Below, one piece after another: positions 40,711-62,402 of a DNA stretch of 64,000 nt. Below the pieces are notes generated by a model, which was not told the DNA's origin, searched no databases, and saw only the letters and a list, made by a program, of their open reading frames with translations. Source of the stretch: Selenomonadales bacterium (GTDB taxonomy: Bacteria; Bacillota; Negativicutes; Sporomusales; UBA7701); contig JARKNV010000047.1 in the NCBI GenBank assembly GCA_029976065.1, positions 142,573 to 206,572 on the forward strand. Direction: 5' to 3'. Position 1 is the stretch's first letter. Every line of letters begins with the position of its first letter. A program made the translations under genes and the position numbers.

Positions 40711-43700
40711 CTAATACTTCCACCGGCAGCCGGCGTTGATGCCCCAGTCCTTGCTCACCGTCGCCCCCCACGACTTCTCCGCGTCGATATATACCTGGCT
40801 CCTGCCGCTGTCGTACACGAACCCGAACCCGGCCACCCACTGGTGGCCCTCCACGCTCGTCTCGAACGTCGCCCCGTCCACCCGCGTCGTGGAGTCGCCC
40901 TTGTACTCGTTCACCCACGCCACCTTGCCGTACAGTTGCCGACCCGCCCCGTCGGCCCCCTGCCACTTGCGGCCGCCCGTCAGCCCCAGGCGGAGCTGCA
41001 GCGACGTCGCCGCCGGCGCCTCCACCTTCAGCCCGTTCGCCGTCGTGTACGCCGCCCGGCTCGCCCACAGCGCTGCAAGCTCGGCCGCCGGCTCGATAAA
41101 GAAGCCGTCGCCCCGCTCGAACCGTTTGCCGCTCTCCGCCGACAGGCCAAAGCCGCTGCTGTTATAGGAGCCGCTGTCGCTCGCCGTCGAGAAGCGCGGA
41201 CTGAACCGGTTGTACTTGCCGATCACGTCGAAATACGCCCCGTTCTCCCGCACCCAGCTCGCGTACGCCCCCAGGTAGCCGCTCTCCGTCGTCCCGCCGC
41301 TGCCGTTGTCGAAGGTGTTGTCCGCCTTGCCGTAGCCGAGGAGGAACCCCGTGTACTTCTTGCCCCCCGCGAAGCTCTGCGGGTTGTCCTTGCCGATCTC
41401 CAGGCCGTTCATCCGCTGGCGGTAGCCGCCCGCCCCCGCCGGCCGCACCGTGAAGCGGCTGGCGTAGGCCCGCGCCCACAGATCGTCCGCCGACTGGCCG
41501 CCCATCCTCAGCTCGCCCATCCGTTTCCGTATCTCGTTCATCTCGCTGTACCAAAGGGTCGTGAAGGAGGTAGTGGTGCCTATGACCGTCTTGGCGAGGG
41601 CGGACGGCTCGCCGGTCGTATAAAAGTAGTAGTCTTCGCCGCTGAGCGATGTGGAGATATCGGCCCCCCTGGCCAGGGAGAAGCGATAGGCGCCGAAATC
41701 GCCGCTGCCGCTGAAGGTGGCGTCGCTGCCGCCCGGCAGGTCGACGACCTTGACCGACTGGGCGCCGCCGGCCACCCCGCCGGAATTGGCGATCAGCAGC
41801 GTGTGGCTGCCCGTCGCCGAACCGGTGACGGTGATGAGGTCGCTGGTACCGGCGGCCAGGTTGGTGTTGACGCGGAAGGCGGCGCTGCCGCTGAGGTTGG
41901 TGATGGTGAGGCTGGAGCCGGCGTTGACGAAGCTGCCGCCGCTGACGTTGAAGGTGCCGTTGTTGACGATCGCCCCGTAAACCAGGCCGCCGGTGACCGT
42001 CAGCAGGCCGTTGTTCGTCAGCGTGCCGTTGTTATACAGCGCACCGCCGCTGGTCAGCGCGCTGTTATTGATCAGGGCGCTATTATTCGTCAACACGCCG
42101 CTGTTGGTCAGCGTGCCGTTATTGGTCAGCGTGCCGTCGTTGGTCAGGTTGCCGCCGCTACCGTTGGCCAGCGTCGCGCCGCTGGCGTTAATCAGGCTGC
42201 CGCTGCTCGTCAGCGCTGCGCCGTTGTTGTTGATAATTGCGCCGTCGTTCGTCAGCGTGCCGCCGGCGGCGTTGGCCAGGCTGCCGCTGTTGGTCAGCGT
42301 GCCGCTGTTGATGAAATTGAGGCTGACGTTGGTCAGCGTAGCACCGCTCTTATTCTCCAGGCTGCCGCTGTTGGTCAGCGTGCCGCCGCTGGCGTTAATT
42401 AGGCTGCCGCTGTTAGTCAGCGTGCCGCCGCTGGCGTTGACCAGGGTGTTGTTGTTAATCAGGCTGCCGCTGCTCGTCAGCGCTGCGCCGTTGTTGTTGA
42501 TAATTGCGCCGTCGTTCGTCAGCGTGCCGCCGGCGGCGTTGACCAGGCTGCCGCTGTTGGTCAGCGCTGCGCCGTTGCTGTTGGTAATTGCGCCGCTGTT
42601 GGTCAGCGTACCGCCGCCGTCGTTGGTCAGGCTGCCGCTGTTGGCCAGCGTACCGCCGCTGGTATTTTCCAGGGCGCCGTCATTATTCAGGTAGCTGCTA
42701 TTGGTCAGGCTGCCGCTGTTGGTCAGGCCGCCGCTGTTGGTCAGCGTGCCGCCGCCGGCGTTTGTCAGCGTGCCGCCGCTGTTATTGTTCAGAGTGCCGC
42801 TATTGCCCAATGTGCTGTTGTTGGTCAGGCTGCCGCTGTTGGTCAGAGCCCCGCTGCTCGTCAGCGTGCCGCTGTTGGTCAGCGTCCCGCCGCTGGCATT
42901 AGTCAGGGTGGCGCCGCTGGCGGTGGTCAGCATGCTGTTGTTTGTCAGCGTTCCGCCGCTCCTGTTTTCCAGGGTGCCGTCATTGTCCAGCGTGCCATTG
43001 TTAATTAGGCTGCCGCTGTTGGCCAACAGGCCGCTGCTCGTCAGCGAAGCGCCGCTGGCATTTGTCAGCGTGGCACCGCTGGCATTGACTATGGTGGCGC
43101 TGTTAATCAGCGTGGCGCCGCTGGCGTTGGTCAGCGTGCTGTTGTTTGTCAGTCTGCCGCTGGCGACGGTCAGCGTGCCGCTATTGGTAAAGGTGCCGGC
43201 GTTGGTCAGCGTGTCGTTATTAATAAAGGTGCCGGCGTTGGTCAGCGTAGCGCCGCTTTCGTTGCTCAGGGTGCCGTCGTTGGTCAGCATCCCGTTGTTG
43301 GTCAAGGTGCCGCCCGTGTAGTTCCACAGCCTGCCGCCGATGCTGAACGAACCGTTATTGGTCACGGCGCCGCCGTAATTGTAAAATCTGTAACCGCTGG
43401 TCACGGTGCCGGCGTTGGTTATGCCGCCGCGATTCTCCGTGTAATATAAACTCAAAGTACCGCTGCCCTTATTGGCCAGCGTGCCGTCGTTGGTCAGCAT
43501 GTATTCATTGGTCATAGTGCCGTAATTATTCAGCGTGCCGCCGCTGGCGTTGGTCATCTTGTAAACAGTGGTCATAGTGCCGTAATTGTTCAGCGTGCCG
43601 CCGCCGGCGTTGGTCAGCGTTCCGTTGCCGATGTTGGCGATGGTGCCGTAGTTGTTCAGCGTGCCGTTGTTGGTCATGGTAACGTCGAAGCCGTCAACCG

Positions 43701-44877
43701 GCCTGGCGTTGTTGGTGATGGTGCCGTTATTTGTCAGCGTGCCGTTATTCGTCAGAGTGACGTCGCTGCGGGCTTCGTAGCTGGAGTTGGTGATGGTGCC
43801 GTTGTTGGTGAAATTGAGGCTGTTGTTGGTCACCGAGCTGTAGTTGGTCAGCGTGGCCGCGGCAGCGTTGGTCAGCGTGCCGCCGCTGGCGTTAATCAGG
43901 CTGCCGTAGTTTTCCAGCGTGCCGGTGTTGGTCAGTGTGCCGGCGGCGGCGTTGGTCAGCGTGGCGCCGACGCCGTTAGTCACCGTGCCGCCGCTGGCGT
44001 TGGTCACCGTGCCGTTGTTGATTAGGCTGCCGCCGTTAGTCAGCGCGGCACCGCTGTTATTCACCAGAATGTTGTTGTTGGTCAGCGTGGCGAGGCTGTG
44101 ACTGCTCAGCGTGCCGTAATTGTCCACCCTGCCGTTGTTGGTGAAGGCACCGTAATTGTACAACGTGCCGTTGTTGGTCAGCGTGGCCCCGCTGGCGTTG
44201 GTCAGGTCGTAACATTGCAGGCTGCCGCTGTTGGTCAGCGTAGCCCCGCTGGCGTTGGTCAGCATGCTGCCGCTGTAGCTGGTCAGGCTGCCGCTGTTGG
44301 TCAGCGTGTTGTTATTGGTCAGCGCGCCTCTGTTGACCAACTCGCCGCCGCTCTTATTCTCCAGGCTGCCGCTGTTGGTCAGCGTGCCCCTGTTCTCTAG
44401 CGTGCCGCTGTTGTCGAGCGTGCCGCTGTTGGTCAGCGTGCCGTTATTGAGGTTGGTAAACGTGGCTCCGAAGTCGTTGGCGAAGGTGCCGCTATTGATT
44501 AAACTGCTGGTGTTGTCGTTCGTCCAGGTCGCACCGTAGGTATTTTCCATTAGGCCGTAATTGGTTATGGTATAGCCGTAATTGCTATATATGGTGCCGA
44601 TATTGTATAGCGTGCCGCTGCTGGTCAAGTTGCCGCGAATGTACAATCTGCCGCCGCTGTTGTACACGGTGGCGGTGCTGTTGATCGCCAGCGAGGGAGT
44701 TAGGTTGTTGTCGCCCGTATAGTATTGCGTTTCATGATCACCCACCGTGCCGCCGACATCCGCGGCGTGAGCCGTGGGCGCCGGGGCCCCGTCGAACCAC
44801 AAAACCGCGCCAAAGAGCACCATCCAACAGCACAGCATTCTCGCCATACACATCATGTATTTCTTCAAACCATTCAC
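40711..44877 (-). CDS. Autotransporter (type V secretion) with long TNxG-repeat passenger and C-terminal beta-barrel
   Basis: Signal-like N-terminus (MARMLCCWMVLFGAVLWFDGAPAPTAHAA), long run of LTNSGSLTNNGTLxNASGGT repeats, C-terminal autotransporter barrel ending ...KDWGINAGCRWKY (terminal aromatic). Confidence 0.9.
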   Translation of the reverse strand: MNGLKKYMMCMARMLCCWMVLFGAVLWFDGAPAPTAHAADVGGTVGDHETQYYTGDNNLTPSLAINSTATVYNSGGRLYIRGNLTSSGTLYNIGTIYSNYGYTITNYGLMENTYGATWTNDNTSSLINSGTFANDFGATFTNLNNGTLTNSGTLDNSGTLENRGTLTNSGSLENKSGGELVNRGALTNNNTLTNSGSLTSYSGSMLTNASGATLTNSGSLQCYDLTNASGATLTNNGTLYNYGAFTNNGRVDNYGTLSSHSLATLTNNNILVNNSGAALTNGGSLINNGTVTNASGGTVTNGVGATLTNAAAGTLTNTGTLENYGSLINASGGTLTNAAAATLTNYSSVTNNSLNFTNNGTITNSSYEARSDVTLTNNGTLTNNGTITNNARPVDGFDVTMTNNGTLNNYGTIANIGNGTLTNAGGGTLNNYGTMTTVYKMTNASGGTLNNYGTMTNEYMLTNDGTLANKGSGTLSLYYTENRGGITNAGTVTSGYRFYNYGGAVTNNGSFSIGGRLWNYTGGTLTNNGMLTNDGTLSNESGATLTNAGTFINNDTLTNAGTFTNSGTLTVASGRLTNNSTLTNASGATLINSATIVNASGATLTNASGASLTSSGLLANSGSLINNGTLDNDGTLENRSGGTLTNNSMLTTASGATLTNASGGTLTNSGTLTSSGALTNSGSLTNNSTLGNSGTLNNNSGGTLTNAGGGTLTNSGGLTNSGSLTNSSYLNNDGALENTSGGTLANSGSLTNDGGGTLTNSGAITNSNGAALTNSGSLVNAAGGTLTNDGAIINNNGAALTSSGSLINNNTLVNASGGTLTNSGSLINASGGTLTNSGSLENKSGATLTNVSLNFINSGTLTNSGSLANAAGGTLTNDGAIINNNGAALTSSGSLINASGATLANGSGGNLTNDGTLTNNGTLTNSGVLTNNSALINNSALTSGGALYNNGTLTNNGLLTVTGGLVYGAIVNNGTFNVSGGSFVNAGSSLTITNLSGSAAFRVNTNLAAGTSDLITVTGSATGSHTLLIANSGGVAGGAQSVKVVDLPGGSDATFSGSGDFGAYRFSLARGADISTSLSGEDYYFYTTGEPSALAKTVIGTTTSFTTLWYSEMNEIRKRMGELRMGGQSADDLWARAYASRFTVRPAGAGGYRQRMNGLEIGKDNPQSFAGGKKYTGFLLGYGKADNTFDNGSGGTTESGYLGAYASWVRENGAYFDVIGKYNRFSPRFSTASDSGSYNSSGFGLSAESGKRFERGDGFFIEPAAELAALWASRAAYTTANGLKVEAPAATSLQLRLGLTGGRKWQGADGAGRQLYGKVAWVNEYKGDSTTRVDGATFETSVEGHQWVAGFGFVYDSGRSQVYIDAEKSWGATVSKDWGINAGCRWKY

Positions 44878-52978: not shown

Positions 52979-53197
52979 CTAGGGGCGCCGCGCTACAGGC
53001 GCCCTGTTCGCCCCCGCCTGCTCGGCGAATCCGGCCGCCATCCCCCGCGCCAACTCGGCGTTGCCGCCGTCCGTCCGGGCGAGGGCGGCCGCCAAATCCA
53101 GCAGCACCGCCCGCCCAAAGCAGGCCGCCAGCTCCCCGTACCGCCGCCGCGCATACTCGTAACCCCGCGCAAAATCGTTAGGATAATTCCTCGCCAT
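52979..53197 (-). CDS. Small conserved protein of unknown function, family copy 1
   Basis: MARNYPNDFARGYEYARRRYGELAACFGRAVLLDLAAALARTDGGNAELARGMAAGFAEQ..., same family as 54002..54208 and 61537..61743; divergent C-terminus. Confidence 0.7.
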   Translation of the reverse strand: MARNYPNDFARGYEYARRRYGELAACFGRAVLLDLAAALARTDGGNAELARGMAAGFAEQAGANRAPVARRP

Positions 53198-53269
53198 CCG
53201 TCACCCTCGCATCCAGCGCCTTTTTCTATCCATATCATACCATTAATTGCAAAACAAATGAATTTTTAT

Positions 53270-53284
53270 TGCATTTTAAATGCA
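53270..53284. promoter_or_regulatory. Palindrome between small ORF and XRE copy 1 (candidate operator)
   Basis: TGCATTT-T-AAATGCA, with additional nearby TTGCA elements. Confidence 0.5.
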
Positions 53285-53334
53285 GTGTAATTGCACTTCC
53301 CCACCCATATAATATACGCAGGGGGTGGACAGAT

Positions 53335-53616
53335 TTGCGCAGACCCAAGAAATTCACGCAACAATATCGGGAAATCGGCCAAAAGATTGCTTTTTACCGC
53401 AACCTTCGCGGCCTGACCCAAGAAGAACTCGCCGAAAAAATCGAAGTCAGCGTAAGTCATATCAGTAAAATAGAAGCTCCCCAGGCGAACACCTCCCTTT
53501 CCCTCGATATGTTGTACCTCATTGCCGAAGGTCTGAACATCGACATTGCCGCCTTTTTTAATCCGATTGAAATAAGCGGCCCCTACCTAAAAAAAGCAGG
53601 GCACCCGCGAGCCTAA
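53335..53616 (+). CDS. XRE family HTH regulator, copy 1
   Basis: YREIGQKIAFYRNLRGLTQEELAEKIEVSVSHISKIEAPQANTSLSLDMLYLIAEGLNIDIAAFF; TTG start. Confidence 0.88.
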   Translation: MRRPKKFTQQYREIGQKIAFYRNLRGLTQEELAEKIEVSVSHISKIEAPQANTSLSLDMLYLIAEGLNIDIAAFFNPIEISGPYLKKAGHPRA

Positions 53617-53666
53617 CTCTCACTAACGCAAGAGACCGATTCCCTGTACAGGGAGCCGGTCCTTAT

Positions 53667-53760
53667 TCTTGTTTTAGCGTGGCGCCCTTAGCTGTTCCGC
53701 CCCTTGCGGCCGCAACCGCGGGGCCGCCAAACCCCGGCTCCGGCGCTCCGGCCGGACGCG
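53667..53760. repeat. GC-rich repeat module, copy A
   Basis: GTGGCGCCCTTAGCTGTTCCGCCCCTTGCGGCCGCAACCGCGGGGCCGCCAAACCCCGGCTCCGGCGCTCCGGCCG; near-identical to 62324-62402. Confidence 0.8.
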
Positions 53761-53910
53761 CTCTATCAGATGCGCCCGCCGCTTCCGCCTATCCCGGCTC
53801 GTCTCGCGGAACGCCCGGCAAAAATTCGCCAACGCCACCCACATTCTCGTCGGCGATACCTCTGCGCCGTCCCCCTGCTTCAACTGCCGCTCTATTTTAT
53901 CTGCTTTGCT
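53760..53910 (-). pseudogene. Serine recombinase C-terminal relic A
   Basis: IERQLKQGDGAEVSPTRMWVALANFCRAFRETSRDRRKRRAHLIERV resembles the C-terminal end of large serine recombinases; runs straight into the GC-rich module. Confidence 0.6.
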
Positions 53911-53920
53911 TTATCCCCCC

Positions 53921-54180
53921 GTCGCTCAGCTCATCATCACTTCCTGCCACATCAGAAAGCCCAAAGAAACCGGCGTCGCCAAACCGGCGCGAGCCGCACG
54001 CTCAGCCCTCGTTCTTCTTCGCCTGCGCCAGCTCGGCCAGGCCGGCCGCCATCCCCCGCGCCAGTTCGGCATTGTCGCCGTCCGTCCGGGCGAGGGCGGC
54101 CGCCAAATCCAGCAGCATCGCCCGGTCGAAACCGGCCGCCAGCTCCCCGTACCGCCACCGCACGTAATCGTAACCCCGCG
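53921..54180. repeat. Long direct repeat, copy A
   Basis: Gapless, nearly identical alignment to 61456-61715 (constant offset 7,535 bp at both ends). Confidence 0.9.
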
Positions 54181-54208
54181 CGAAATCGTTAGGATAATTC
54201 GTCGCCAT
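54002..54208 (-). CDS. Small conserved protein of unknown function, family copy 2
   Basis: MATNYPNDFARGYDYVRWRYGELAAGFDRAMLLDLAAALARTDGDNAELARGMAAGLAELAQAKKNEG. Confidence 0.75.
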   Translation of the reverse strand: MATNYPNDFARGYDYVRWRYGELAAGFDRAMLLDLAAALARTDGDNAELARGMAAGLAELAQAKKNEG

Positions 54209-54242
54209 CCGTCACCCTCGATGCGAAAATCCCCGGAATTGA

Positions 54243-54282
54243 GTAATAACTTAATTGCTCATACTAATTATACGGTTATTAC
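54243..54282. promoter_or_regulatory. Inverted repeat between small ORF and XRE copy 2 (candidate operator)
   Basis: GTAATAAC (54243-54250) ... GTTATTAC (54275-54282). Confidence 0.5.
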
Positions 54283-54374
54283 CGAAATAAATCAAGGCAT
54301 TATCATGCTATAGCCTGATAAATTGTCCTTTTGCAGCGTATGACGCAGGGTATAATTTAGTTATAGGTTAACGC

Positions 54375-54698
54375 TTGGAGTTGATTACCCTGTTCGATGT
54401 CGGCGGTCGGATTCGCAAACTGCGTAAGGAACGCGGCATAAGCGCCAAGGAAGTGGCTATTTCCCTGGGAGTATCGGCCAGCTTCATTTCCGGAATCGAG
54501 AATAATACCGATAAATGCTCACTGGAAAACCTGGAGCGCATTTGTCGGGTCCTGGGCGTCACCCTTGCCGGGTTCTTCGCCGAACCCTCCGAGGACCTTG
54601 CCCCCGAACTCATGCGCTTGCTGGAAACCGCGAAAAAACTGTCCCCCGAGCAACGGGAGGCGGTTCGCAAAATGCTGGAAACCATGAATAAAGACTGA
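54375..54698 (+). CDS. XRE family HTH regulator, copy 2
   Basis: VGGRIRKLRKERGISAKEVAISLGVSASFISGIENNTDKCSLENLERICRVLGVTLAGFF...PELMRLLETAKKLSPEQREAVRKMLETMNKD. Confidence 0.92.
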   Translation: MELITLFDVGGRIRKLRKERGISAKEVAISLGVSASFISGIENNTDKCSLENLERICRVLGVTLAGFFAEPSEDLAPELMRLLETAKKLSPEQREAVRKMLETMNKD

Positions 54699-54702
54699 CG
54701 CA

Positions 54703-54736
54703 AAGGCCCGCCACCAGGCGGGCCTTGGTTTTTGTT
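54703..54736 (+). terminator. Terminator of XRE copy 2
   Basis: AAGGCCCGCCaccaGGCGGGCCTTGGTTTTTG. Confidence 0.85.
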
Positions 54737-55060
54737 TTATAGCGCGGCGTCCTTGACTGTGCCGCCCCGTGCGAGCGCACCGTCAGACCGGAGCGAAGTG
54801 GAGGAGTCCGCAGGACTTGCGCCGCAGGGCATAATCCGTCATTGGTGCCACGCTGTTACGTGGCCCTTGCGGGGCCCTTACCACCTCTAATTGCAATAGT
54901 TTTAATTAATCATCCCGGAGCCGTTGATTCAGGAACTAGCACGCCCTTATTAATGTTTGTATTTTAGAACATGAATTCTAATTTTCGAACACTCAGTACT
55001 AAAACATCAGTATTTTTGTGCTATACTTATAATAAAATTCAATCATCGGCCTGTTGAATA

Positions 55061-57001
55061 GTGATTGGAGAGTGGGATTGCATGAAAATTGCGGTGGGTG
55101 GTTCAGAATTCTTCCAACGCTATATTCGAGAAATTAGAGAAACACGGCTTTTTGAGTCCGTAGAAATTATCGGATTATTTATTGACTATAATAACATCGA
55201 TTGCCCCAAGGTAGCAAAGCATTTGGAAAAGGTTAATGCCCAGGTTGTGGTCCTAGGGCCTACACATTATCAACAATTAAAGCCATACCTAAATATCCCC
55301 TGCTATGTCATACGGCCTAGTATTGTTGATTTTCTGTCGCTCAATAAGCAAATCAAAAACCATACAAAAACCTGTACTGTCTTACCATATCCAGATGATA
55401 TTGACTTTAGCGCATTGGAAAGCGGTCTCAATATTAAAGTCAATAAAGCCTGGTATCACGATGTTAACGACATCGAAAACACTGTTAAATTACTTAAAGA
55501 GCGCGGTTTTTATACGGTTATCGGCAATAACAGGGTATGTTCCGTGGCGCATAATTATGGCATGCAAAGCCTCTACTATTACAGAAGGGATGGTATGATT
55601 GAAGCAATAAGAAATGCCATCCAGATGGCTGAAAACAGTCAGCGCGAAGAGCAATATATCAACGAAGTCAAGTCCATTTTATCCGGTACTATAAATGGTA
55701 TTATATCTACCTCTTATGATGGGACGATCAGCTATGCCAATAAGTCAGCTTTGAGCATACTGAAGACGGTGCAAGATAAACTATACGGCCGCAGTATCAA
55801 CGATCTGCTTCCCCGCGATATTGTCGACAGAGTACTCACAGATGGACGGCAAGAAAACAATATTGCTCTATGGTTTAACAACGTAAACATTATGGGGAAC
55901 TTAATTCCGCTTAAAATCGGCGATGTCATTCGAGGCGTCTGTCTGAACTTTGAGAACACCTCAAAGATTTTAGAGTTCGAAGCCATAATTCGGCAAGAAA
56001 TCAAGCGTAAAAGCTTTGCTACTCGATACTCCTTTGAAGATATTATTGGCACAAGCGGCGCAATCAGAGAAACCGTGGACCGTGCGAAACGATTTGCTCA
56101 AACTGATTCGACCATTCTGATTACTGCCGAAACCGGCACGGGAAAGGAAGTCTTTGCGCAAAGTATCCATAACTTAAGCCGACGCAGACAATATCCGTTT
56201 GTCGCAATAAACTGCAGCTCTATTCCGGATACATTAATTGAAAGTGAGTTATTTGGATACGAAACTGGCTCATTTACTGGCGCGATCAGTAAAGGTAAAC
56301 AGGGCCTTATCGAGCTTGCGCACCGTGGCACAATATTTTTGGATGATATCGATTCGATTTCACCTAATTTTCAGTCGAAAATCCTGAGAGTGATTCAGGA
56401 GCGGGAGATTATTAAGATCGGCGGGGACAAAACCATTCCGATTGACATCCGCTTTATCGTCGCTACCAATCGCAACTTGAAAGCGATGGTTGAGGCGGGT
56501 TTGTTCCGCAATGATTTGTATTATCGTCTAAATGTTCTCCGATTATCGATTCCACCATTAAAACAAAGGCAGGAAGATCTTCCGGAGCTTTATAAATTCT
56601 ACTTGAGTCAATTTGACCAAACGCTTTATATGGATATCGAAAAATCCTTTCACGACATCTTTAAACCGGCGTTTGAATATCATTATCCAGGGAACATCAG
56701 AGAACTCATAAGCATTACCGAGCGTTTTGTAACGTTGGCGGATCGGTCGCGGCTTGGCGATTTTCCTTATCTGCAGCAACTGCTGATTGAGTGTCTTGAT
56801 AATCCGAAAAGTACTGCTGGGTGCGAGCAAATAGGCGTAATTGTTGGTGATGATTATGGCAAAGACATTAAAACTGCTGAAAGGGAAGTCCTGCGGTACT
56901 ATTTGTCCAAACATGGCGGGAACATGGTCGAGTTGGCAAAGTCACTGGGAATCGGCCGCACCACCTTGTACAGCAAGCTCAAAGACCTTTCTCTGAAATG
57001 A
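55061..57001 (+). CDS. Sigma-54-dependent activator with PrpR-like N-terminal domain, PAS and AAA+
   Basis: [54 protein letters not shown]...IFLDDIDSI...; C-terminal LAKSLGIGRTTLYSKLKDLSLK. Confidence 0.93.
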   Translation: MIGEWDCMKIAVGGSEFFQRYIREIRETRLFESVEIIGLFIDYNNIDCPKVAKHLEKVNAQVVVLGPTHYQQLKPYLNIPCYVIRPSIVDFLSLNKQIKNHTKTCTVLPYPDDIDFSALESGLNIKVNKAWYHDVNDIENTVKLLKERGFYTVIGNNRVCSVAHNYGMQSLYYYRRDGMIEAIRNAIQMAENSQREEQYINEVKSILSGTINGIISTSYDGTISYANKSALSILKTVQDKLYGRSINDLLPRDIVDRVLTDGRQENNIALWFNNVNIMGNLIPLKIGDVIRGVCLNFENTSKILEFEAIIRQEIKRKSFATRYSFEDIIGTSGAIRETVDRAKRFAQTDSTILITAETGTGKEVFAQSIHNLSRRRQYPFVAINCSSIPDTLIESELFGYETGSFTGAISKGKQGLIELAHRGTIFLDDIDSISPNFQSKILRVIQEREIIKIGGDKTIPIDIRFIVATNRNLKAMVEAGLFRNDLYYRLNVLRLSIPPLKQRQEDLPELYKFYLSQFDQTLYMDIEKSFHDIFKPAFEYHYPGNIRELISITERFVTLADRSRLGDFPYLQQLLIECLDNPKSTAGCEQIGVIVGDDYGKDIKTAEREVLRYYLSKHGGNMVELAKSLGIGRTTLYSKLKDLSLK

Positions 57002-57039
57002 CAGAAAACCGTCGACTCTCGTCGGCGGTTTTCTGTTTT
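57001..57039 (+). terminator. Terminator of the sigma-54 activator gene
   Basis: ACAGAAAACCGTCGACtctcGTCGGCGGTTTTCTGTTTT. Confidence 0.8.
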
Positions 57040-57151
57040 ATTGCCATTTACACGATTAAGCATACGTTCGTATTTTCGAACAAATTCCTATATCTCGAAC
57101 AAAACCAATGGGCGACCAAAGACTCAGCCGCGAGAATCGGGGCTTTTTTCA

Positions 57152-57169
57152 TTGGCACAAGTTTTGCTA
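57152..57169 (+). promoter_or_regulatory. Sigma-54 promoter upstream of opine dehydrogenase
   Basis: TTGGCACAAGTTTTGCTA (TGGCAC-N5-TTGCT). Confidence 0.85.
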
Positions 57170-57216
57170 CATCCAAGGCTAACTGCTGCAATTGCAGAAA
57201 TAAAGGGGGCCTTGTT

Positions 57217-58335
57217 ATGAAAACACGGAAGATTACAATTATCGGAGGGGGTAACGGCGGTTTTGCGGCGGCATCCGATCTAACCATCCGCGGGCATGAA
57301 ATTACTTTGTACGAACTCCCGGATTTCCGAAACGGACTGGCTGGAGTCATTGAAAAAGGGGGTATAGAGCTAGAGGCTTTCCCCAGCAACGGCCTTAAGG
57401 GTGGATTTGCTAAGATTCACAGAATCACCTTTGACATTGAAGAGGCGCTGAAAGCATCTGATATCGTTTTTGTAATCGTTCCTTCCAATGCCCTTGAGAC
57501 GATCGCCAAACTCTGCGCACCGCATATCCGCGAAAATCAGATAATCACGCTTTGCCCGGCTAACTTCGGGGGAAGCATAATGTTCAGAAAAGTACTTAAG
57601 CAGAATGGCTGTGCTAAGCATGTATGGATCGCTGAGGCTAGCTGTATGATGTATGCATGCCGCAAAAAAGATGCCTCGTCCGTTTGGGTTAGAGGTTATA
57701 AGCACAATCTCGGCGTTGCCTTCTTTCCTAGCGAAAACAGCGATGAAGCCTTTAGTCAATTACAGGAAATATATCCTATATTCACAAAATATGATAACAT
57801 TCTCACTACCGGCCTCTCCAACCCTAATACCCTGATGCATACGACTCTGATGATGGCTAATCTCAGCAATATTGATAACCAGGAGGATCGGTTATTTTAC
57901 CGTGAATGCTTTACACCGGCCGTCCAGAGTATTCAAGATGCATTGGAAGCTGAACGGATACAATTTAACCGTATCCCGGGATTCAAGCTGACAACATTAT
58001 GGGAAATGGTTGCAAAGTGGTATGGCTACCAGGGGGCCAAGGGCTCATCGTTACGAGATTTGAATACAAGCGCGCCTATCTTCGCCTACAGTAAGATGCC
58101 TACGTCACTGAACCATCGCTATCTCACCGAGGACGTTCCCTACGGGCTAATTCCTATCGAAGAGCTTATGGAACAGTTTGCATTGCCACACAAGATTACC
58201 TCTGCGCTTATCCACATATGTTGCGCAATGTGCGGAACCGATTTTTACAAAGAAGCACGAAGATTGGATGACTTAGGTCTTAAAGGATTGAATGCCAAGC
58301 AGATGATGAGCTACGTTGCTTGCGGCAGTTATTAA
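57217..58335 (+). CDS. NAD/NADP octopine/nopaline (opine) dehydrogenase family protein
   Basis: ITIIGGGNGGFAAASDLTIRGHEITLYELPDF; SNPNTLMHTTLMMANLSNI; RIPGFKLTTLWEMVAKWYGYQGAKG; RYLTEDVPYGLIPIEELMEQF. Confidence 0.9.
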   Translation: MKTRKITIIGGGNGGFAAASDLTIRGHEITLYELPDFRNGLAGVIEKGGIELEAFPSNGLKGGFAKIHRITFDIEEALKASDIVFVIVPSNALETIAKLCAPHIRENQIITLCPANFGGSIMFRKVLKQNGCAKHVWIAEASCMMYACRKKDASSVWVRGYKHNLGVAFFPSENSDEAFSQLQEIYPIFTKYDNILTTGLSNPNTLMHTTLMMANLSNIDNQEDRLFYRECFTPAVQSIQDALEAERIQFNRIPGFKLTTLWEMVAKWYGYQGAKGSSLRDLNTSAPIFAYSKMPTSLNHRYLTEDVPYGLIPIEELMEQFALPHKITSALIHICCAMCGTDFYKEARRLDDLGLKGLNAKQMMSYVACGSY

Positions 58336-58481
58336 GCGAATTTTATAGCGCAAGCGAGGTCGTGAGCGGCAGCTTTGACAGTTTAATTCTTCCAGGAACG
58401 TTAGTCCAGAAAGACTTAAAGCGCTGCTTCTGCTGGCTACGGTAGCATAATAATCAGAAAAAGGAAGGGCTGGTTGACCGA

Positions 58482-59795
58482 ATGGAAGTATGGCCGAATT
58501 TTAATATATGGTGGGGCCTCCTGGGATTGCTGCCATTCATAGCGTATATAGTCATCATGTATCGGGGTATGGATATGGTTCCTGGTACCCTTATATGTGT
58601 AATATTGGGGGGCCTTATAACTCACCAAGGTTTGAATGGGATTGGCACGGAGATAGTGAAAACTCTTGGGTCGCCACTTGCGGTCGTCGGCCTAATCATC
58701 ATGATAGGAAGAGGACTTGGTCAGGTGCTGACGGAAACCAAAGTGGCGCACACTATCGTACATGGGATCATGTATTCTGTCGGAGTTAATACAAAGAAGA
58801 GAGCCATGCTTGGTATTATGGTGGCCACAATGTTTATAACCGCGCTGTTGGGAACAATGGCAGGCGGCGTAGCAATTATCGCGCCGATTGTAGTTCCCAT
58901 AGCAGCTGCAGTAGGTCTGACGCCTGCCGTAGTGGGTGTTCTTTTCCAAGGGGTCGGTGAAGAGGCTTTGACACTGGGACCATTTACCCCCCCGGTCGTG
59001 ATGCTCATGACGCTTACTGGACTTGCCTATGGCACAATGGTTCTATACGCTGCCATTCCTATCGCACTGGTTACCGCAGTAGTGACATGGTTTATGGCAC
59101 AAAAGATCCAGCGTCAGACGGAAGGAATTATTAAATACTCGGAAGAGAGCATACAGGCTGCTACATATACCCCTAACGATACTCAACGACGTACGACGGC
59201 CATCTTCCTCGTAACTTTCTTTATCCTTGTCACCTACGGGATATATATCAAAGCGGGAACTTCTTTCATAATAGCAGTTATGATCCTCCTTGCCATGCTA
59301 GTCGGCCTGCTCAGTAGACTATCAATTGATCAGACCTTCAGGTTCTTTATAAAAGGGATGGAAGGAAATCTTTGGATGTTCGTAGGGATTCTTTTGTTAG
59401 GCCCGCTGATTAATTTTGTTGAAAAGGCCGGCGGATTTTACGCTATAACCAGCCTAATGCAACCTTACTTATTGCTTGGCGGTAAGGTAGTAACCATTAT
59501 CTTCGGGGGCTTATTCGGCGCTTTTGGCATATCAGGATCGGTAGTAGCCGAACTAATGACACTACACATGTTATTCAAAGACATATTGGCGCAACAAGGG
59601 GTATCGATGGTAGTTTGGGCCGTTGCCCTCATTATAGCTACCAGGGTGACCAATTTTATCTACCCCGGAGGTAACATGTTCGCTATGATGGGCTTTGCGG
59701 AGCTAAAAGAGATTAAATGGATGCTGAAAAACGGTGCGATGGTTGCAATGGCTCAAGTGGTTTTACTTATTACCTACGCTGTTCTGTTTGCGTAA
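58482..59795 (+). CDS. Na+/H+ antiporter / ion-transporter-superfamily membrane protein
   Basis: 437 aa multi-TM; GTMAGGVAIIAPIVVPIAAAVGLTPAVVGVLFQGVGEEALTLGPFTPPVVMLMTLTG. Confidence 0.75.
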   Translation: MEVWPNFNIWWGLLGLLPFIAYIVIMYRGMDMVPGTLICVILGGLITHQGLNGIGTEIVKTLGSPLAVVGLIIMIGRGLGQVLTETKVAHTIVHGIMYSVGVNTKKRAMLGIMVATMFITALLGTMAGGVAIIAPIVVPIAAAVGLTPAVVGVLFQGVGEEALTLGPFTPPVVMLMTLTGLAYGTMVLYAAIPIALVTAVVTWFMAQKIQRQTEGIIKYSEESIQAATYTPNDTQRRTTAIFLVTFFILVTYGIYIKAGTSFIIAVMILLAMLVGLLSRLSIDQTFRFFIKGMEGNLWMFVGILLLGPLINFVEKAGGFYAITSLMQPYLLLGGKVVTIIFGGLFGAFGISGSVVAELMTLHMLFKDILAQQGVSMVVWAVALIIATRVTNFIYPGGNMFAMMGFAELKEIKWMLKNGAMVAMAQVVLLITYAVLFA

Positions 59796-59903
59796 GTAGC
59801 AAATCAATTATTTATTCTTCAACGCATCAGGAGACGCTCTCGCCTGTGGGGTCAATTAAAGAAAACACATCGAGTCGGGGGTAATCTGGAGATAAAATAC
59901 AGT

Positions 59904-59933
59904 CAATGAAGCCTTGCAGTCAAGGCTTCATTG
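59904..59933 (+). terminator. Hairpin downstream of the antiporter gene
   Basis: CAATGAAGCCTTG-cagt-CAAGGCTTCATTG. Confidence 0.7.
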
Positions 59934-60061
59934 CGTTTGTAAGGAATTGTATATGTTCTTGCAAACGTAGGGAGAAAACAGTCAAAGCGGTCTTAAAGTA
60001 CTGAATTTATTCTGGAATGAGTTTGTGTTTCTTTCGAAATAAAACTGTTACCGTCGCGGCG

Positions 60062-60106
60062 ACTTCAACACAAGAGAGGCGGTAACCGCCTCTCTTGTGT
60101 TGAAGT
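60062..60106. repeat. 45-bp perfect palindrome with essentially no loop
   Basis: ACTTCAACACAAGAGAGGCGGT-a-ACCGCCTCTCTTGTGTTGAAGT. Confidence 0.9.
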
Positions 60107-60119
60107 TGGATTGCATTTA

Positions 60120-60310
60120 GGATACTATTCCACCTATTTTATCTATCTTCCTATCCTGCGTTACCGTTCACCAGCCGCTTCCGCCCATCCCGGCTCGCCT
60201 CGCGGAACACCCGGCAGAAATCCGCCATTGCTTGCCTGATTCTTTCCAGCGATACTTCGGGGTCGGTACCTTGTTGTACTTGATGCTCTATTTCCTGGTG
60301 CCGCCTGGCC
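60120..60310 (-). pseudogene. Serine recombinase C-terminal relic B
   Basis: ARRHQEIEHQVQQGTDPEVSLERIRQAMADFCRVFREASRDGRKRLV, then a deletion relative to relic C, with TVTQDRKIDKI in another frame. Confidence 0.6.
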
Positions 60311-60453
60311 ACGGTACCCCCCAACCCCCAATAAAAAAGCCACCGGCCGGATCGGCGTGGCGGCTGTAGACTTGCATTAGAATTCAACCAACTTACTAAA
60401 CACTACGCTATTTATAGCATCGGGTAGCAAAACTATCGCTTCCCGCTAGTAAC

Positions 60454-60937
60454 CTAATCGCTGGAAAGTCCTATCAGGCTGGCCTTCCCAATTGTTTTCC
60501 CCGAGGCGTCCTTGGCTTCAATAACGAAATGGTATTTATGCACCCCATTCGGTGGATAGGGTCCTTCCCACGGAGTGGCTTGAATAATACCGTCTTGCCA
60601 TTTTTGTTTCGGGGGTATTCCCTCGGGTAATTCGCTATAGGACGCGGGAATATTGCGAATATCCCAATGAACATAGCCGTTGGCCGGAGGATCGTAATCT
60701 TTACAGGTAATCGCGAATTTTACGGTCCCTGGCGGAGGATTTAGCCATTGAAGCGCAGGTGACTTGTTTTCCTGTTTTGCTTTATATCTAGCCGGCATAG
60801 ATTGACCATCTTTAAATGTCGGGCTTAGCAATGTAAACTTTTCTTGGTTTTTATCCGGGCCTTCTTCGGCGGCCCCGCCAATACCCGGAACTAATACGAC
60901 CATAAGCAGAACCACCAGCGACAAAATCTTACGCATT
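60454..60937 (-). CDS. PEBP / YbhB-YbcL family (Raf kinase inhibitor-like) exported protein
   Basis: Signal peptide MRKILSLVVLLMVVLVPGIGGA; PTFKDGQSMPARYKAKQENKSPALQWLNPPPGTVKFAITCKDYD..., YVHWDIRNIP. Confidence 0.85.
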
Positions 60938-61244
60938 TTAATCCTCCCCATATGAATTACTTCTGTATTCTTGTTTTTTCCTATGCTTTCCTGCCTTATG
61001 TCCATTAAAAATTACCCATGGGGAAAATGTGCTGTCATTGCTGGCGATAAAATCGGCCACTGAATAAACTCCGCTTTTAGATATGTTATATTGCCATTCC
61101 TAACAAGCTAAACCGGAATTAGCGGCGATATTGAGAAGCGTGGGCGCTATCTTGTAGGTTTGGCATAGACTATAAAGCATACACTATAAATTATTCAGGG
61201 TACCTTTCTGCTTGAGGTTCCCTGAATAAACCTAGCGGTTCGCT

Positions 61245-61420
61245 ATACTCCACTCAATCTTATCGATCTTCCTATCCTCCGTTACCGTTATCCGCTTTAT
61301 CAGCGCATGCACCAACCTTTTCCACTCTTGTCCCGGCCCGACTCGCGAAACGCCCGGCAAAATCCGCCAACGCCACCCAGATTCCCGCCGGCGATACCCC
61401 TGCACGCCCCCCCTGCTCCA
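61245..61420 (-). pseudogene. Serine recombinase C-terminal relic C (frameshifted)
   Basis: Across frames: MEQLEQGGRAGVSPAGIWVALADF / CRAFRESGRDKSGK / RLVHALIKRITVTEDRKIDKIEWSIANR*. Confidence 0.65.
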
Positions 61421-61455
61421 ACTGCTCCATTTTCTGCGCTTTGCTTTATTCCCCC

Positions 61456-61715
61456 GTCGCTCAGCTCATCATCACTTCCTGCCACATCAGAAAGCCCAAA
61501 GAAACCGGCGTCGCCAAAGCGGTGCGAGCCGCACGCTCAGCCCTCGTTCTTCTTCGCCTGCGCCAGCTCGGCCAGGCCGGCCGCCATCCCCCGCGCCAGT
61601 TCGGCATTGTCGCCGTCCGTCCGGGCGAGGGCAGCCGCCAAATCCAGCAGCATCGCCCGGTCGAAACCGGCCATCAGCTCCCCGTACCGCCGCCGCGCGT
61701 AATCGTAACCCCGCG
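61456..61715. repeat. Long direct repeat, copy B
   Basis: Gapless, nearly identical to 53921-54180. Confidence 0.9.
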
Positions 61716-61743
61716 CGTAATCGGACAAATATCGCTCCGCCAT
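61537..61743 (-). CDS. Small conserved protein of unknown function, family copy 3
   Basis: MAERYLSDYARGYDYARRRYGELMAGFDRAMLLDLAAALARTDGDNAELARGMAAGLAELAQAKKNEG. Confidence 0.75.
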   Translation of the reverse strand: MAERYLSDYARGYDYARRRYGELMAGFDRAMLLDLAAALARTDGDNAELARGMAAGLAELAQAKKNEG

Positions 61744-61833
61744 CCGCTCCTATCTCCTCCGCTGTTCCCGTGCCGCCCCGTTCCAAACGCCGGCGGCTTC
61801 CTTTTGGTTCAATTCTCCGGTCGCCTCAACTTG

Positions 61834-61964
61834 ATTCTATTATAGAATAAATACCTCCCGCCATCAAGCTGTTTGATTCTTATTAAGCATCAACGTCATA
61901 CTATATATTGGTTTACCCCATCGCACCCTGTACTATAGAGGTAGCAAATATTCTGTTTTGGAAT
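61834..61964. promoter_or_regulatory. Two related palindromes between small ORF and XRE copy 3 (candidate operators)
   Basis: ATTCTAT-T-ATAGAAT (61834-61848) and ATTCTGTTTTGGAAT (61950-61964). Confidence 0.55.
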
Positions 61965-61966
61965 AG

Positions 61967-62281
61967 GTGATTGTATTGGACGTGGGCGCCCGCATCCGGG
62001 AATTGCGCAAAGCCAGAGGGCTGACTACCCGCCAATTGGCGGAAATGACGAATATATCCCAACCTGTCATCAGCAGGCTGGAAACCAACACGAGATCGGC
62101 CGACGTTTCGTATATAGAAATTATCTGCAACGCGCTGGATATTTCCCTTGCCGACTTCTTTGCCGCCGATCGGTCGGACATGAACCCCGAACTTCAACAA
62201 CTGCTGGAAACCGCGAAAAAATTGACCCCCGAGCAACGGGAGGCAGTTCGCAAAATGCTGGAAACCATGAATAACGGCTGA
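61967..62281 (+). CDS. XRE family HTH regulator, copy 3
   Basis: VGARIRELRKARGLTTRQLAEMTNISQPVISRLETNTRSADVSYIEIICNALDISLADFF...PELQQLLETAKKLTPEQREAVRKMLETMNNG. Confidence 0.92.
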   Translation: MIVLDVGARIRELRKARGLTTRQLAEMTNISQPVISRLETNTRSADVSYIEIICNALDISLADFFAADRSDMNPELQQLLETAKKLTPEQREAVRKMLETMNNG

Positions 62282-62284
62282 CAC

Positions 62285-62316
62285 CAAGGCCCGCCTAATG
62301 GCGGGCCTTAGTTTTT
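62285..62316 (+). terminator. Terminator of XRE copy 3
   Basis: CAAGGCCCGCCtaatGGCGGGCCTTAGTTTTTG. Confidence 0.85.
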
Positions 62317-62323
62317 GTTCCGT

Positions 62324-62402
62324 CGTGGCGCCCTTGGCTGTTCCGCCCCTTGCGTCGCAACCGCGGGGCCGTCAAACTCCGGCTCCGGTGCTCCGGGCGA
62401 AC
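62324..62402. repeat. GC-rich repeat module, copy B
   Basis: GTGGCGCCCTTGGCTGTTCCGCCCCTTGCGTCGCAACCGCGGGGCCGTCAAACTCCGGCTCCGGTGCTCCGGGCG. Confidence 0.8.

Follow-up and report, generated by a model that had tools for sequence, protein, structure and literature searches.

Small-protein genes opposite XRE repressor genes in a Selenomonadales genome: a possible reduced form of a CI/Cro-like switch

Here we report a conserved and previously undescribed family of small-protein genes, found three times in 64,000 nt of contig JARKNV010000047.1 from a Selenomonadales bacterium (the window; its genome is G000 in our comparisons), each time opposite a divergently transcribed gene for an XRE-type helix-turn-helix (HTH) repressor. 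As read from gene order in relatives, the ancestral unit is a cassette of three genes, with a longer repressor gene (XRE1) on one side of a divergent promoter with operators and, on the other, a short second repressor gene (XRE2) followed by the small gene. We give an even chance to the reading that the window pairs are a reduced form of this CI/Cro-like cassette, with the small protein as an output directed at a host target.

The small genes and their XRE neighbours

The three pairs consist of the following genes.

52979-53197, minus strand: small-protein gene, copy A, 72 amino acids; its counterpart in the congeneric genome G024 is an orthologue or paralogue
53335-53616, plus strand: XRE gene opposite copy A, with an HTH_3 domain and without the conserved XRE1 tail
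54002-54208, minus strand: small-protein gene, copy B, 68 amino acids
54375-54698, plus strand: XRE1-type repressor gene opposite copy B, with HTH_3 and the conserved tail (LLETAKKLSPEQREAVRKMLETM)
61537-61743, minus strand: small-protein gene, copy C, 68 amino acids; the C-terminal two thirds of the protein are identical to copy B
61967-62281, plus strand: XRE1-type repressor gene opposite copy C, with HTH_3 and the conserved tail

The three minus-strand open reading frames picked out by an earlier, sequence-only reading of the window are real and related genes, and a genome-wide search found them to be all the copies of the small gene in this genome. The conserved core described for them is borne out by an alignment of the three proteins, which has 47 invariant columns and 72-76% identity over the length to copy A as reference. 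The observation that the protein carries no recognised domain also stands: copies A, B and C have no Pfam domain, the family has no meaningful match in NCBIfam, PHROGs or PADLOC, and its best profile match in the PDB (E 0.87) is not meaningful. Homologues at 30-50% identity keep residues D8, G12, Y13, Y15, L35, E48 and G52, and the strict residue signature of the family is DFxxGYxY...ELxxGM. AlphaFold2, supplied with 20 homologues, predicts three helices (residues 8-21, 29-40 and 47-65; mean pLDDT 86, pTM 0.74), a fold for which no match was found at E<=0.001 in the PDB or among viral models.

Purifying selection on the small gene is evident in 115 gene pairs from the class of genome G735 (another class of the same phylum), where the ratio of nonsynonymous to synonymous substitution rates (dN/dS) is 0.22 and dN is below dS in all pairs; the ratio near 1 that the sequence-only reading had named as evidence against its proposal is not what is seen in these relatives. 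Within the window and its own genus the ratio is 0.3-0.9, too noisy to inform, and the value of 1.8 for copies B and C is likewise noisy, resting on a dS of only 0.05.

All three divergent plus-strand XRE genes, at 53335, 54375 and 61967, were confirmed by Pfam matches to HTH_3 (E 1e-13 to 1e-14). XRE2 is absent from the window and its genus, and each XRE gene faces its small gene directly across 137-223 bp. The XRE at 53335 is 93% identical to its G024 orthologue (dN/dS 0.06), with which its TTG start agrees, and that at 54375 is 86% identical to its own (dN/dS 0.19). G024 has three small copies, each opposite an XRE, and keeps the tandem order of two pairs (54375/54002 and 53335/52979) with the same XRE orthologues; the neighbour of this tandem in G024 is itself an extra paralogue, and hence there is no usable empty site there.

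Two further features of the window bear on how the copies arose.

53872-54171, minus strand: 300-nt block, 93% identical to 61407-61706, comprising the 3' two thirds of the small gene and DNA downstream
53775-53897, minus strand: degenerate repeat lying downstream of copy B; more copies are at 60171-60293 and 61313-61435

The block shared by copies B and C suggests that a duplication or a gene conversion took place recently. Homogenisation was partial, as the XRE partners of B and C are just 52% identical; similarly, copies 1 and 2 of the small gene in G024 are 97% identical and the XREs beside them 35%. The likeness of the small genes would thus come from duplication or gene conversion, in contrast to the deep divergence of the XREs. 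One could go further and suppose that the window holds nothing more than a local tandem duplication, homogenised by gene conversion and functionless today, as the 300-nt block, the degenerate repeats around the copies and the seemingly unconstrained dN/dS of the window copies might suggest. We think this very improbable, given that the reading frames and invariant residues are kept in all copies, that the gene is under purifying selection in relatives and that the XRE partners are strongly constrained.

Gene order and distribution in relatives

We sampled 28 genomes of the window's order, 83 of the class of G735 and 398 others across the phylum, several of the compared genomes being metagenome assemblies. 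The small gene is present in 7 of the 28 and in 18 of the 83, and 2 of the 398 match, one marginally. In G014 and G009, both of the window's order, the small gene follows a short XRE2 gene (76-77 amino acids) and the two are divergent from the longer XRE1; G735 has the same three genes in the same order. XRE1 is divergent at all 20 loci read in the class of G735, G735 included (one, L116, is truncated in both genes), and XRE2 is intact at 17 of these and decaying at two. Of 17 modules measured, 16 have an XRE2 stop that overlaps the beginning of the small gene by 8-23 nt, and an intact small gene is retained next to decayed XRE2. The CI/Cro layout, in which two divergent HTH repressors share one control region, is therefore present in G014, G009, G735 and the class of the latter, and absent from the window.

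Outside family f3 (G003, G004 and G005), a divergent XRE gene was found at all 28 readable loci (three each in the window's genome and G024, one each in G014 and G009, and 20 in the class of G735). Within f3, by contrast, an XRE neighbour is missing from all ten small-gene copies whose upstream DNA is readable for about 0.5 kb or more; five more copies, cut by contig ends, lie outside this count. The proposal of a functional, conserved two-gene module accordingly holds as far as a regulator/small-protein module is concerned, but the module is ancestrally one of three genes, and homologues lacking any XRE neighbour, which had been named as evidence against the pairing, do exist in one family and at none of the readable loci elsewhere. 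In the three f3 genomes the small gene is followed, in the same order, by an HD-domain gene and a transporter gene (functions assigned by reading); the small-protein tree places the f3 copies as sister to the window's genus (support 0.99). In G003 the small gene occurs at about 13 copies, many near-identical, at contig ends (L014-L033) and close to what is left of PDDEXK_2 (PF12784) transposase tails, a pattern that a small repeated element carrying the gene would produce.

The conserved XRE1 tail, which is present in 19 of the 28 genomes of the order, is strongly associated with the small gene in the class of G735 (both in 17 of the 83 genomes, small gene only in 1, tail only in 5, neither in 60; p=2e-12), as expected of a linked cassette. 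The association is not exclusive in either direction. A second, unrelated small protein (FWYVCDGEVEEYSGQEVNW...) pairs with the XRE1 tail in the same slot in G009, G014, G024, G012, G013, G026, G001 and G003, and the first small protein also stands opposite XREs without the tail, at 53335 and at two loci in G024.

Several of these relatives hold related arrangements that we record here. Two genomes have modules of the second small protein immediately next to CRISPR-Cas loci, the cas genes being assigned by reading only: in G009 the module (L079 2369-3253) is between type III (Cmr-like) genes (L192 7828-14102) and an array (L079 3750-4511), and in G026 (L149/L193) it adjoins type I-C genes and an array. 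Such modules may have an anti-CRISPR or CRISPR-control role. In G018, G012 and G014 (L162, L173 and L176), distant XRE1-like genes have a divergent XRE2 followed by no small protein but by a large one, which reads like a methyl-accepting chemotaxis receptor.

Output protein or antirepressor

The independence of the f3 copies, the second small protein and the tail-less XREs speak for an output protein more than for a dedicated antirepressor. A small protein that binds XRE1 as a SinI-like antirepressor or co-regulator (an antirepressor is among the roles suggested by the sequence-only reading) is nevertheless a real if doubtful possibility. It would account for the tight linkage, for the co-occurrence with tail-bearing XRE1, and for the constancy of both the XRE1 tail and the small protein while the HTH changes. 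It also has some structural encouragement: the AlphaFold2 model of the XRE1 encoded at 61967 has an HTH and a C-terminal helical hairpin (pLDDT 81, pTM 0.58), and its best match in the PDB is SinR of the SinR/SinI complex (1b0n_A; E 2e-4, 102 columns, TM 0.57), with sequence similarity confined to the HTH part. Unlike SinI and SinR, however, the small protein and the XRE1 tail are not homologous (hhalign probability 0.2), and the small protein has no SinI match in Pfam, so that SinI homology is ruled out. An obligate antirepressor would also sit poorly with small genes opposite tail-less XREs, with f3 copies that have no XRE at all and with an XRE1 tail that pairs with an unrelated small protein.

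Matched specificity of the two repressors

XRE1 and XRE2 fall into two DNA-binding types, a and b, and the types of the two proteins match in all 18 modules in which both genes are intact (9 of type a and 9 of type b); two further type-a modules carry a decaying XRE2. HTH identity between types is only 33% for XRE1 and 29% for XRE2, compared with 94-95% and 84-92% within types, whereas the small protein has 83% identity both within and between types. In the same comparison the XRE2 tail is 82% identical and the XRE1 tail 66%, and a and b modules are interleaved in the small-protein tree. Each type has its own operator-like site. That of type a, TGAATNNNATTCA, occurs three times in most type-a modules, with a spacing conserved from G014 to the class of G735, and just five such sites lie beyond the control regions in 64 kb of flanking DNA; that of type b, CGCTAAAGCNNTT, occurs three times in each type-b module examined. 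Judged from these alignments, the HTHs and operators are exchanged as one block while the small protein stays constant. From the agreement of types in 18 of 18 modules we infer that XRE1 and XRE2 both bind the triple-operator sites, with opposite effect. In phage immunity regions, too, both HTHs and the operators are swapped as one block.

Control regions and flanking DNA in the window

The intergenic regions of the three pairs, and a hairpin that follows two of them, are as follows.

53198-53334, no strand: shared divergent control region A, with palindromes that are largely conserved in G024
54209-54374, no strand: shared divergent control region B, with blocks conserved in G024; shuffle p 0.42
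61744-61966, no strand: shared divergent control region C, with palindromes; shuffle p 0.04
54703-54726, plus strand: intrinsic-terminator-like hairpin after the XRE gene of pair B; the same element is at 62283-62309

Region A has palindromes TGCATTTTAAATGCA at 53270-53284 and AGTGTAATTGCACT at 53284-53297 (shuffle p 0.08), and region C has ATTCTATTATAGAAT at 61834-61848 and ATATTCTGTTTTGGAATAG at 61948-61966; these palindromes may be operators, whereas no operator was established in region B. A sigma-70-like promoter for the copy B small gene is predicted at 54295-54267 on the minus strand. After each of the three XRE genes, and at no other place in the window, there is a GC-rich repeat (GCTGTTCCGCCCCTTGCG with flanks; 53691-53708, 54756-54773 and 62337-62354). 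The degenerate repeats downstream of the small genes were suspected, by reading, to be the C-terminal end of a serine recombinase; they match only DUF4368, at E 0.16, and phages, plasmids and Pfam gave no support for this identity. Elsewhere, an array scan found a 24-mer that occurs five times in 42276-44386, the copies spaced 55-85 nt apart.

A model for the switch

In the full cassette, XRE1 (SinR-sized, with an HTH and a predicted helical-hairpin tail) and XRE2 (short and Cro-like) would be transcribed divergently and would read the same three operators. XRE1 would keep XRE2 and the small gene repressed; upon loss of XRE1 activity, XRE2 and the small protein would be made, and XRE2 would then hold XRE1 off, producing bistability. 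In the window's genus, loss of XRE2 would have left a plain repressor opposite its target gene. The small three-helix protein would be the output of the switch and act on a host target, with DicB under DicA/DicC as the model. Repression, bistability, the operators of the window and action on the cell instead of on the XRE protein are what we infer; we favour a small protein whose role is neither that of an obligate antirepressor nor that of an antitoxin partner or a directionality factor.

Some points weigh against this model. The modules lie outside any intact prophage, the signs of operators in the window itself are no more than suggestive (shuffle p 0.04-0.42), and the XRE1 tail is conserved as well, which makes a protein-protein role with the small protein possible.

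A pair resembling a toxin-antitoxin system, with a toxic small protein and XRE or XRE2 as antitoxin, would fit the multi-copy, patchy distribution and the overlap of XRE2 with the small gene, and XRE proteins are common antitoxins. We consider it distinctly improbable, and this suggestion of the sequence-only reading is left without positive support: no toxin family matches in Pfam, NCBIfam or PADLOC, the window genes are divergent, not co-transcribed, and intact small genes stand beside decayed XRE2 and without any XRE in f3, which would hardly be tolerable for a toxin.

We give least credence to the idea that the pairs travel on a mobile element of which the small protein is a part, for instance as a recombination directionality factor. 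Searches of 50,697 phage records, IMG/VR scans and plasmids returned no homologue of the small protein; the sole viral match is an HTH relative at 32%, and a phage or plasmid origin is unsupported. The only phage link found is a weak homologue (DFDSGYEYAR...) in the early parts of two prophage-like regions of G025 (L048 1453-1707 and L053 1417-1629). That these regions have tyrosine integrases, that PDDEXK_2 tails lie near the G003 copies and that the downstream repeats read like a recombinase end, their identity being unconfirmed, are the points in favour of a mobile element. A directionality factor would, however, have no recombinase to serve beside the modules of G024, G014, G009 and G735, the G014 locus having insertion sequences nearby and no integrase, and the earlier suggestion of such a role is not upheld.

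More speculatively, the modules could represent a portable, phage-derived switch scaffold, present in two classes of one phylum, with swappable effectors (at least two unrelated families) directed against the host or at mobile-element conflict, as DicB blocks certain phages; an immunity-like exchange of repressor specificity would let several copies share one chromosome without cross-talk. We think this unlikely as a whole. The two unrelated proteins in one slot make the cargo idea directly testable, and should the small proteins prove to be effectors, the cassettes would offer a simple entry to the host role of cryptic switches. Our analysis brings to light an undescribed small-protein family whose predicted fold is confident, and it presents a CI/Cro-like switch that stands free on the chromosome in several copies, as a cassette in which the specificity block and the cargo appear to evolve separately.

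Comparison with known systems

XRE1 resembles the regulators of the SinR/SinI system of Bacillus and the SinR/SinR' system of C. difficile (PMC5864091) in its size, in the helical hairpin predicted after its HTH and in having a small partner gene adjoining. The modules differ from the sin operon in being divergent and of three genes, and in a small protein that is not homologous to the XRE1 tail. Lambda CI/Cro is like the full cassette in its divergent repressor pair, three operators and matched specificity swapped as a block, but XRE1 is too short for a cleavable protease domain, and the cassette stands alone on the chromosome and has a single small gene. In Caulobacter, XRE repressors control the small protein HfiA, which acts by inhibiting a single host enzyme (PMC10688885); this too is an XRE-controlled small protein, although the genes do not form adjacent, divergent modules.

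By analogy, the closest working precedent appears to be DicA/DicC-DicB. In the Qin cryptic prophage of E. coli, DicA and DicC control DicB, a protein of 62 amino acids that blocks cell division and gives protection from some phages (PMC10448788). Like the full cassette, this system has divergent CI-like and Cro-like HTH repressors, three operators and a small protein outside a working prophage (PMC10448788); it differs in that DicB is expressed from the opposite flank of dicA, with a promoter and operators of its own (PMC10448788). The modules described here are, in addition, multi-copy and without an identifiable prophage, and the likeness that we propose is one of layout and logic, with no shared ancestry of the small proteins claimed.

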